Shown one piece after another: positions 4,356-36,086 of a stretch of DNA of 51,150 bases; position 1 is the first letter of the stretch; every line of letters starts with the position of its first letter. The notes below the pieces were generated by a model. The model saw only the letters and a program-made list of their open reading frames with translations. It did no database searches and was not told the DNA's origin. The stretch is taken from assembly GCA_945861465.1 (NCBI GenBank), contig CAMAVB010000021.1, positions 1-51,150 of the forward strand, read 5' to 3'. This DNA comes from Candidatus Kuenenia stuttgartensis. GTDB lineage: Bacteria; Planctomycetota; Planctomycetia; Planctomycetales; Planctomycetaceae. Made by a program: the position numbers and the translations under genes.

Positions 4356-6041
4356 TTGTCCGATTCAGATGCCCTGATCGTTGGCCAGGGTTTGGCGGGT
4401 TCGTGCATGGCATGGACACTCCACTGGGCTGGTCGCCAGGTGATGATCGTGGATCGCGGCGAGCCGATCACCGCGTCGCGGATCGCCGCTGGTTTGATCA
4501 CCCCCGTTACCGGTCAACGAATGGCGCTCACGACTGGATACAAAGAGAGCTTCCGACACGCTGCCGCATTTTATCGCCGTGTCGAACGCGAATTGAATTG
4601 TCAGGTCCTTAACGAGAAACCTGCAGTCCGGCAATTCGTCAAAGACGACGGACAGCACGCTTTCGAAAAGAAACTCTGCGGGTCCGACGTTCGTTTTAGC
4701 ACTCTCAAAGATGACGCAGGCAGAGTCACTGGCATCGAATTGCGCGATGCGGCGCGGCTGAACGTCCCAAAATTCCTTGAACAGACGCGGCAGTATTTTG
4801 CGTCGCTCGGACGCTACCAACAGGCGGAGCTGAATCCGGACACCGACATCGTGATCAATGACAAAGGAGTGTTCGTCGCCAGACTTGATATTCGCTGTGC
4901 ATGTGTCGTCTTTTGCCAGGGTTATCAACCAATCCGGAACCGCTGGTTTCCCACAATTCCCGATGGCCCGGCAAAGGGCGAAATTCTGCGTGTCAGATTA
5001 TCAGATTACACGGAAGACAGAGTCGTGCATCAAGGCATCTGGCTTGTGCCGGATGGGCTCGAGGCCGACGCAGCGTTTTATCTTCTCGGCGCGACGTATG
5101 ACAGAGTCAACCTGAACAACGAACCCACGACCGTCGGGCGGGAAGAACTCGTATCTGGCCTGCAACAAATCACAGCGGAAACACCGATCGTCATGGATCA
5201 TGTTGCCGCCGTTCGCGCGGGGATGAAACGTCGCAAGCCGATCATCGGTCCGCATCCCGACAGCGATTGCGTGTTTGTGCTGAACGGACTTGGCTCCCGT
5301 GGTGCGTTGCTGGCACCCGTCGCGGCGCAGGCGTTGACCGATCTGATATTTGGTGCACCGATCACCAGCGATCAGCACGACGTGATCGACGTTTTGCCCG
5401 GGAAGTTGGACAGTCGTCTGGCAGCCACGCACTCCACCCGGCCCAAATCGCTGACACAGCTTGCCCACAACGTCATCCGCAGAATCGTGCAGCCGGGCGA
5501 CACTGTGATCGATGCGACAGCAGGCAACGGCAACGACACACAAATGCTGGCGACTCTCGTCGGAGCCGCTGGCCGCACCATCGCGCTAGACGTCCAGCAG
5601 TCAGCGATCGACAGCACGGCAAACCGCCTGGCGAAAGCCGGACTTACGGCAGACCTGCGGCTCGGCGATCACGCGCGCGAACTTGCATCGTTGCAGGCAT
5701 CCGGAATTCGCGTAAAAGCCGTGATGTTCAATCTGGGATACCTGCCGGGCAGCGACAAGCAGATCACAACCTCAGGAAACTCAACTCTCGCTGCGGTTCA
5801 GATCGCCAGCGACATCCTTTTGCCCGGCGGAGCTGTCACCATGATCGCCTACCGTGGCCACACCGCAGGACCAGCCGAAGCCGCGATCGTGGAACAATGG
5901 ATCGCGGAATTGCCCACAGATCGTTTTGAAACATCCCGCATCGAAGGAGATGCGACTCAGGCAACTTCCCCGGTGTTGTTTGTCGTGCGAAGTGTGAGTT
6001 GTGGCTCAATCGCCGGGGCTGGCCAGTTTGCAGCTTTGTAG
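4356..6041 (+). CDS. Fused FAD-dependent oxidoreductase and MnmM (YtqB)-like tRNA methyltransferase
   Basis: A 561-residue two-domain protein. The first half (about 1-345) is a DAO-type FAD oxidoreductase: dinucleotide-binding motif LIVGQGLAGS near the N-terminus, later GMKRRKPIIGP and a C-terminal NGLGSRGALLAP typical of this fold. The second half (about 370-545) is a Rossmann methyltransferase with the SAM loop DATAGNGND, then FNLGYLPGSDK and AYRGH, which are hallmarks of YtqB, characterised in Bacillus as MnmM (nm5s2U34 tRNA methyltransferase). In E. coli MnmC one polypeptide carries an oxidoreductase that turns cmnm5U into nm5U and an unrelated methyltransferase that makes mnm5U. The inferred role here is the same two steps with a different methylase. 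The only workable start is TTG at 4356, because an in-frame stop lies at 4329 and the FAD motif begins a few codons in. The stop codon lies in a repeat. Confidence 0.85.
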   Translation: MSDSDALIVGQGLAGSCMAWTLHWAGRQVMIVDRGEPITASRIAAGLITPVTGQRMALTTGYKESFRHAAAFYRRVERELNCQVLNEKPAVRQFVKDDGQHAFEKKLCGSDVRFSTLKDDAGRVTGIELRDAARLNVPKFLEQTRQYFASLGRYQQAELNPDTDIVINDKGVFVARLDIRCACVVFCQGYQPIRNRWFPTIPDGPAKGEILRVRLSDYTEDRVVHQGIWLVPDGLEADAAFYLLGATYDRVNLNNEPTTVGREELVSGLQQITAETPIVMDHVAAVRAGMKRRKPIIGPHPDSDCVFVLNGLGSRGALLAPVAAQALTDLIFGAPITSDQHDVIDVLPGKLDSRLAATHSTRPKSLTQLAHNVIRRIVQPGDTVIDATAGNGNDTQMLATLVGAAGRTIALDVQQSAIDSTANRLAKAGLTADLRLGDHARELASLQASGIRVKAVMFNLGYLPGSDKQITTSGNSTLAAVQIASDILLPGGAVTMIAYRGHTAGPAEAAIVEQWIAELPTDRFETSRIEGDATQATSPVLFVVRSVSCGSIAGAGQFAAL

Positions 6042-6156
6042 GGTGGGACCAGCGGAGCGCAGGCCCACCAGATTGAATGCATGGTGGGCTGTCGCTGTCG
6101 CTTGTCCCACCAGATTGAATGCATGGTGGGCCGGCGCTGTCGCTTGTCCCACCCTA
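6038..6156. repeat. Repeat family K, copy 1, with a 42-bp tandem duplication
   Basis: The element is bounded by GTAGGGTGGGACC on the left and its near complement GTCCCACCCTAC on the right. Inside are two adjacent 42-bp units (6064-6105 and 6106-6147) differing at few positions, each with a CCCACC...GGTGGG palindrome. The TAG stop codon of the fusion gene (6039-6041) is part of the left end. Related sequences lie at 36180, 41354-41396 and 47695-47726. Confidence 0.75.
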
Positions 6157-6472: not shown

Positions 6473-6579
6473 TAAGGACCGCTCGAGAAATAACTGTCCC
6501 TTTTTATGCCCCTCACCCTGCCCTCTCCCCTTGCCAGGGGAGAGGAGGATGCGGTCAATTATTTCTCGAACGGTCCTAA
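6473..6579. mobile_element. Repeat family A, copy 1: about 100-bp MITE-like element
   Basis: A 101-bp element (6476-6576) with terminal inverted repeats of about 20 bp: GGACCGCTCGAGAAATAA on the left and its near complement on the right. It is flanked by TAA on both sides (6473-6475 and 6577-6579), consistent with a 3-bp target duplication. The centre has a CTCCCC/GGGGAG palindrome. It has no coding capacity. Copies lie at 46401-46500 and, interrupted, at 49652-49892. Three-base TNA duplications are known for the IS1031 group of the IS5 family, but assignment to that group is only a guess. Confidence 0.8.
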
Positions 6580-34505: not shown

Positions 34506-36086
34506 CTATGGCATGCGTTGCGATTCTGCCTGCCCGATGGCGCGATCAAGTCGATGCAGAACGCAGACCTTTCCGAGCAGTTCAATCGATCGAAACAAGT
34601 CTGCGCCTTGAGCCTTGCCGGTGACACACAACCGAAGTGCCGGGAAGATGTCGCCGACCTTCACTTGTTTCTCGACTGCAAATGACTGCAGCAGTTCGTG
34701 CAGTGGTACAGCCGTAAAATCGTCCGTGTCGCTCAACCGCTGCCGCAGATCCTGCAGCAGGACAACGGCGTTCTCAGGCTGCACCACACGCTTCTGGAAA
34801 TTTTTGAGGTCGATCCTGAGTTCCTCGTCCGTCACGAAGAACTCATCGACCTGAAAGATGTCGCCGAACACACGCAGACGGTCAGCGGCCAGTTCAATGA
34901 CACGGGAGACTTTTGCCTGCGTCTCTTTGTCGTCTTCATCGTCAATCAGCCCGGCCTGTTTCAACATCCGCAGACAGCCGTTGAGTTTCTCGTTTGCTGG
35001 CAATTCGCTCATCCAATGCGACTGGAAGTTCAGCAACTTGTCCGGATCCAGACCAGCGGCACTCTGAATGACTCGATCCAGCGTGAATTTCCTTATCATT
35101 TCCCCATGCGACAGAAACTCCGTCTGATCGTCGAGCGACCAGCCGAGTCGTACAAGTGCATTCAGGACGCCGGCGGGCAGAAATCCAACCTGCTGATAGT
35201 AGGCCACCATGACCGGTGACAGATCGTTCGATTTCGGATCGATTCCGATGCGACTCAGCACCTGATCACCCAATTCAAAGAGCTTTTGAAATTGCGGATT
35301 GGTGCGGTATTTGTCAATCTTTCGCTTGCTCATTTTCTCCTTGCTGCCGGGAGATGCGACATAAGGGACGTGCGCCCATTCAGGCGTCCTGTTGTCCAGC
35401 GCGCGGTGCAGCAGAATCTGGATCGGCGTATTCGAAAGATGTTCTTCAGCGCGAATGACGTGCGTGATTTCCATTTCAGCGTCATCCACGACAGTGGCGA
35501 AATTGTAGAGCGGCGATCCGTCGCTGCGGGCGATGACGGGGTCCGGCATCAGACTGCAATCGAATTCCACGGTCCCGCGAATGTGGTCGTTGATCACGAC
35601 CTTGTCGGTGCGGGGAATCAACAGCCGCACGACGCATGGCCGACCGTCGGCGAGGTATTTGGCGACCTCATCGTCTTTCAATGAGAGTGACGCGCGGCTG
35701 CTGACATAGACGCGTTTCTCCTTCTCCGCTGCTTCGCGCTGTGCCTGAGTATCTGCCGACAGCTCAAAGTCGCGATAGGCGTGCCCGGACTCCAGCAGTC
35801 GGGCAAGCGCCGCAACATACAGATGTCGCCGCTGCGACTGAAAGTACGGACCATGCGGGCCACCGACTTCCGGACCTTCGTCCCAGTTAAGCCCCAGCCA
35901 GCGAAACGCAGCCAGGATTGGCCCCAGCGATTCATCCATATTTCGCTGCTCATCGGTGTCATCGATTCGCAGAATGAACTGACCCTGATTATGGCGCGCC
36001 CAGAGCCAGTTGAACAGCGCCGTACGCATTCCTCCAATGTGCATGTAGCCGGTGGGACTGGGAGCAAATCGAGTTCGAACGGTCAT
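34506..36086 (-). CDS. gltX: Glutamyl-tRNA synthetase
   Basis: A 526-residue class I aminoacyl-tRNA synthetase charging tRNA-Glu. The ATP-binding HIGG motif follows RFAPSPTGYM, the KMSKR motif is present near residue 255, and FALRIDDTD-like FILRIDDTD lies between. The C-terminal anticodon-binding region is complete. No aspartyl/glutamyl-tRNA amidotransferase gene lies nearby, so whether it is discriminating cannot be told. The start has no close neighbour on its strand; the upstream gap holds repeats K and B. Confidence 0.95.
   Translation of the reverse strand: MTVRTRFAPSPTGYMHIGGMRTALFNWLWARHNQGQFILRIDDTDEQRNMDESLGPILAAFRWLGLNWDEGPEVGGPHGPYFQSQRRHLYVAALARLLESGHAYRDFELSADTQAQREAAEKEKRVYVSSRASLSLKDDEVAKYLADGRPCVVRLLIPRTDKVVINDHIRGTVEFDCSLMPDPVIARSDGSPLYNFATVVDDAEMEITHVIRAEEHLSNTPIQILLHRALDNRTPEWAHVPYVASPGSKEKMSKRKIDKYRTNPQFQKLFELGDQVLSRIGIDPKSNDLSPVMVAYYQQVGFLPAGVLNALVRLGWSLDDQTEFLSHGEMIRKFTLDRVIQSAAGLDPDKLLNFQSHWMSELPANEKLNGCLRMLKQAGLIDDEDDKETQAKVSRVIELAADRLRVFGDIFQVDEFFVTDEELRIDLKNFQKRVVQPENAVVLLQDLRQRLSDTDDFTAVPLHELLQSFAVEKQVKVGDIFPALRLCVTGKAQGADLFRSIELLGKVCVLHRLDRAIGQAESQRMP

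Follow-up and report, generated by a model that had tools for sequence, protein, structure and literature searches.

The open reading frame at positions 4356-6041 (+) encodes a single protein in which a DAO-type FAD oxidoreductase is joined to an MnmM (YtqB) methyltransferase, and we infer that the two halves probably complete, one after the other, a modification of the wobble uridine in the anticodon of certain tRNAs. It seems to do the job of E. coli MnmC but is built from a different methylating half and a different oxidizing half. In this reading, which we consider well supported although it rests on computation alone, without biochemical or tRNA data, the N-terminal FAD domain would oxidize the carboxymethylaminomethyl group of cmnm5(s2)U34, releasing glyoxylate and leaving nm5(s2)U34, and the C-terminal domain would then transfer a methyl group from SAM to give mnm5(s2)U34; the substrate of the oxidase, the order of the steps, the use of FAD, and the presence of cmnm5U34 made by MnmE/MnmG in this genome are inferred.

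Domain architecture and conserved residues of the fusion gene

The window, by which we mean the entire 51,150-nucleotide stretch of DNA analysed (contig CAMAVB010000021.1 of assembly GCA_945861465.1), carries the gene as one continuous frame of 561 aa with a TTG start. Pfam searches recovered DAO PF01266 at residues 5-330 (positions 4368-5345; 81.1 bits, E 1.5e-22) and PF06962 at residues 409-544 (112.5 bits, E 1.9e-32), and residues 365-545 (positions 5448-5990) exceeded the cut-off of the NCBIfam MnmM equivalog NF053511 (166.8 bits against 135). The oxidase half, in contrast, fell far below the cut-offs of the ThiO family TIGR02352 (66.4 of 250.8 bits) and of the MnmC oxidase domain MnmC1, TIGR03197 (60.5 of 174.2 bits). 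No stop lies between the halves. An AlphaFold2 model had a mean pLDDT of 91.2, and the only stretch below 50 was a predicted flexible linker at residues 351-362 (positions 5406-5441), with the last residues near 50. Just downstream of the gene is a 42-nt tandem duplication of unknown function (positions 6064-6147, 95% identical) that begins CCCACC and holds GGTGGG, and a 25-nt inverted repeat (arms 6475-6499 and 6553-6577, 88% complementary) lies between the fusion gene and an M16 peptidase gene. Elsewhere in the window are a Ser/Thr protein kinase joined to response-regulator receiver domains (two stretches) in one protein (471-2447, −) and, 28 kb away, a glutamyl/glutaminyl-tRNA synthetase-like gene (34506-36086, −), some of whose tRNAs would be substrates of the proposed pathway.

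Structural comparison of residues 1-361 of the model using VIA-align matched the oxidase half to glycine oxidase 4ysh (Z 34.6, 338 aligned, 2.9 A), CmiS2 6j38 (Z 33.7), E. coli MnmC 3awi (Z 32.3, 342 aligned, 3.3 A), iminodiacetate oxidase 6pxs (Z 31.2), and sarcosine oxidases (Z about 30.8), where rows less than 1 apart are ties; Foldseek likewise ranked iminodiacetate and glycine oxidases above MnmC. A profile of 12 family members searched against the PDB found CmiS2 (81 bits), glycine oxidases (60 to 49), iminodiacetate oxidase (43), and MnmC (39 to 36), with sarcosine oxidases at 24 bits or less. The closest solved relatives act on glycine or N-carboxymethyl amines, as CmiS2 and iminodiacetate oxidase are likely to do, although the fold is at least as close to glycine oxidase as to MnmC and does not by itself name the substrate. 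The fold of the methyltransferase half rests on Foldseek, which matched it to 3eey (TMt 0.90) and to MnmM with bound anticodon stem-loop, 8h0s (from B. subtilis) and 8h1b (0.89 and 0.88).

The GQGLAG dinucleotide-binding motif (residues 10-15, positions 4383-4400) is conserved in the family alignment and in a set of 85 family rows. Among the residues of E. coli MnmC listed as FAD-binding or critical for FAD (PMC3648344), S304, G518, R567, and G619 are identical in the window protein, as are G271, G273, and G578; the equivalent of Arg567 is Arg287 (positions 5214-5216), which is R in 84 of 85 family rows. In GLGSRG (residues 311-316, positions 5286-5303) a basic residue precedes the invariant Gly, as in the GSRG of E. 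coli MnmC, and this position, corresponding to E. coli R618, is K or R in 83 of 85 family rows and S in the genome’s own ThiO. E. coli Arg653, which is over 98% conserved in MnmC and of unknown function, has no counterpart. In the methyltransferase half, the tRNA-contacting and catalytic residues D34, N101, Y104, K110, Y141, and H144 of B. subtilis MnmM (PMC9976899) correspond to the identical residues D394 (at the end of DATAGNGND), N459, Y462, and K468 (in FNLGYLPGSDK, residues 458-468, positions 5727-5759), and Y499 and H502 (in YRGH, residues 499-502, positions 5850-5861), of which B. subtilis Y141 and H144 hold U34. K468 is K in 51 and H in 17 of 71 MnmM rows examined. The seventh residue checked, K11, whose K11E substitution is inactive in B. 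subtilis, is replaced by H371, but H is the usual letter there (57 of 71 rows, with 13 Q and 1 K) and is also found at this place in 3eey; given that the curated family cut-off is exceeded, we judge this to be a species-level residue rather than a defining feature.

Distribution of the oxidase and its methyltransferase partners

The window’s genome, a 474-contig draft, contains one match to PF06962, that of the fusion gene. No MnmC methylase (PF05430) and no DAO above the MnmC1 cut-off were found elsewhere in the genome, a separate ThiO is present above its cut-off (301.2 bits), and no radical-SAM protein of TIGR01212, a family that probably includes MnmL/YtqA, was over cut-off (best 49.6 of 180).

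Across Planctomycetota, MnmM over cut-off was found in 19 of 294 genomes. Fourteen of the 19 are in the window’s family and all 14 also carry the DAO, 2 as fusions, 10 as neighbours, and 2 unlinked; in all 10 split pairs DAO comes first and the two frames overlap, as the starts were read. The 3 family genomes of that sample without MnmM over cut-off lack the DAO too. The 5 MnmM genomes outside the family lack the DAO, and 3 of these 5 have TIGR01212 over cut-off, against 0 of the 14 and 0 of the 3; as TIGR01212 is wider than MnmL, its absence is only suggestive. The remaining two MnmM genomes have neither this DAO nor TIGR01212 over cut-off, which could reflect a further unknown oxidase or nm5U made directly. 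One genome that resembled a third fusion by frame length gave no DAO match in its long frame or to the family-alignment profile, and another long frame ending just before its MnmM reads like a peptidase.

In 170 genomes of the family, the DAO was found in 103 (E <= 1e-30) and MnmM in 101 (E <= 1e-20), with every MnmM genome being DAO-positive; the two exceptions are a 79%-complete genome and a DAO fragment in a 261-aa frame. Counting by eye from the listed coordinates, 53 of the 101 are fused (one open frame of 500 aa or more over both domains), 38 are neighbouring, and 10 are unlinked or on different contigs. These searches scored only the best first-look candidates in most genomes (12 for the DAO and 19 for MnmM), and absences are accordingly less sure than presences. 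In the window’s genus 16 of the 18 listed genomes are fused, including one with a TGA inside the MnmM match, while one has the two genes near contig ends and one lacks both; one genome of the genus carries two DAO-MnmM fusions. In three genera with both genes in other members, one genome each lacks both. On a tree of the oxidase half (60 rows, 9 fused), the fused/split state requires at least 5 changes.

The oxidase family extends beyond planctomycetes. Of 80 relatives in named genomes (the best of 571), 55 have MnmM (over 90 bits) within the flanking sequence examined, 7 as fusions, 46 adjacent, and 2 further off. Of the other 25 genomes, 6 have MnmM elsewhere, 15 have instead the unrelated methylase MnmC2/MnmD (PF05430), and 4, all metagenome-assembled, showed neither. 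Fourteen of the 15 are clear; the other is a 36-residue match in a 40-aa frame at a contig start, in a record labelled Bacteroidia whose DAO groups with Methylobacter in the tree, and the contig may be mis-binned. PF05430 was sought in 50 of the 80 genomes, comprising all 25 without nearby MnmM and 25 of the 55 with it. Of the 17 over cut-off we left out two as borderline, namely one with a score of about 22 bits in a genome with MnmM elsewhere, the only case in which a genome would have both among those without nearby MnmM, and one of 22 bits among the 25 MnmM-linked genomes, none of which has a clear match. DAO-MnmM gene pairs were found in Verrucomicrobiota, Hyphomicrobiales, Methylococcales, Nitrosomonas, and others, and a fusion in one record named Acidobacteria.

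In two genomes of one Bacteroidota class, here labelled G466 and G709, the DAO gene directly follows MnmC2, overlapping the end of the MnmC2 gene in G466 and following it by roughly 80 nt in G709, and the two pairs are 46-47% identical. These are 2 of 30 loci of a class-wide search, of which only G709 is new, G466 being the only such case among the 80 earlier loci. A profile of 13 DAOs from genomes of this kind found the family in 177 of 247 genomes of the class. MnmC2 is reported in Bacteroidetes anyway (PMC9976899), and its co-occurrence with the DAO there carries little weight apart from the two adjacencies.

Functional interpretation and alternatives

The linkage of one oxidase clade to two unrelated nm5U34 methyltransferases, up to fusion with one of them, points to the step just before methylation, the oxidative removal of the carboxymethyl group of cmnm5U34. 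The first-pass annotation had proposed that planctomycetes combined a DAO-type FAD oxidoreductase with an MnmM-like methyltransferase in the reverse of the MnmC domain order, and this is supported: the MnmM residues checked are kept, but for K11, and no canonical mnmC was found elsewhere in the genome. Two corrections are warranted. By the cut-offs used, the oxidase half is not a transplanted MnmC oxidase but forms its own glycine-oxidase-like clade, for which the tree cannot say whether MnmC1 or ThiO is nearer because both lie on long branches, and the combination is not a planctomycete speciality.

An alternative is that only the MnmM half acts on tRNA, the DAO half being an amine or glycine oxidase with a metabolic substrate that was fused or linked for another reason, while nm5U34 arises directly from MnmEG, which can add an aminomethyl group from ammonium (PMC3936742). 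The glycine oxidase fold matches are compatible with this possibility, and the 10 family genomes with unlinked genes and the 4 relatives with neither methyltransferase count against our preferred reading; however, we regard it as unlikely given that all 101 MnmM-positive genomes of the family have this DAO, that the fused/split state changed at least five times, that the oxidase also lies next to MnmC2 in two genomes, and that a ThiO above its cut-off exists separately. Still less likely is that the DAO half works on tRNA in another step, for example by demethylating or further oxidizing mnm5U34. Sarcosine oxidases, which would be expected to remove N-methyl groups, are fold neighbours, but such a reaction would undo that of the partner, the nearest relatives by profile are glycine/N-carboxymethyl-amine oxidases and MnmC, and Arg287 is kept. 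An artefact joining two separate genes might be entertained for a draft genome whose relatives commonly have split pairs, but this is refuted by the independent fused genomes, one of which is a single-contig genome, and the in-frame linker has no stop.

More broadly, it is probable, though less certain than the function proposed for the fusion itself, that this DAO clade is the missing cmnm5U34 oxidase (MnmC(o)-like enzyme) of many bacteria that have no MnmC oxidase, partnering with MnmM in planctomycetes, Verrucomicrobiota, Hyphomicrobiales, and Methylococcales and with MnmC2/MnmD in Bacteroidota. Under this hypothesis it has fused to MnmM, or split from it, several times, so that an MnmC has been put together more than once from different parts.

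Comparison with known systems

Cho et al. (PMC9976899) expected a fused oxidase-methyltransferase gene or an operon but did not find one among genes shared by three Gram-positive bacteria, and they describe as unknown the MnmC(o)-like oxidase of MnmM organisms and of groups with an orphan MnmC methylase such as Bacteroides and alpha-proteobacteria; the present fusion names a concrete candidate family with two unrelated partner methylases. We recognised no paper on this fusion in literature searches of limited scope that included PMC9976899, PMC3648344, PMC12548931, PMC10965804, PMC5372745, PMC3936742, and PMC7408541, and it may already be described by Jaroch et al. 2024 (10.1128/jb.00452-23, PMC11025329; referenced in PMC10965804), which appears to mention fusion proteins.

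The radical-SAM enzyme MnmL (YtqA-type), which is named beside MnmC for nm5s2U in PMC12548931 and probably makes nm5U from cmnm5U before MnmM acts, is an unrelated protein. ThiO glycine oxidase, CmiS2, and iminodiacetate oxidase share the fold of the oxidase half, but the ThiO cut-off is not reached. The C-terminal half is a member of MnmM by the features examined, with K11 replaced by His, but solved MnmM chains are about 180-200 aa, whereas here MnmM is fused behind an oxidase. Like E. coli MnmC, the protein combines an FAD domain of the DAO/glycine-oxidase fold with a SAM methyltransferase and is proposed to carry out the same reactions, and as the two domains of E. coli MnmC work independently, with fusion thought to give stability and perhaps cooperation (PMC3936742), the same may hold here given the disordered linker. 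It is nevertheless not a member of the MnmC family, as the methyltransferase half is MnmM rather than PF05430, the order of methyltransferase then oxidase (PMC3648344) is reversed, and the oxidase half is a separate clade below the MnmC1 cut-off; if the inferred function is correct, it would be a clear case of convergent gene fusion, with the same two-step enzyme built from a different methyltransferase and with the domains in the opposite order.
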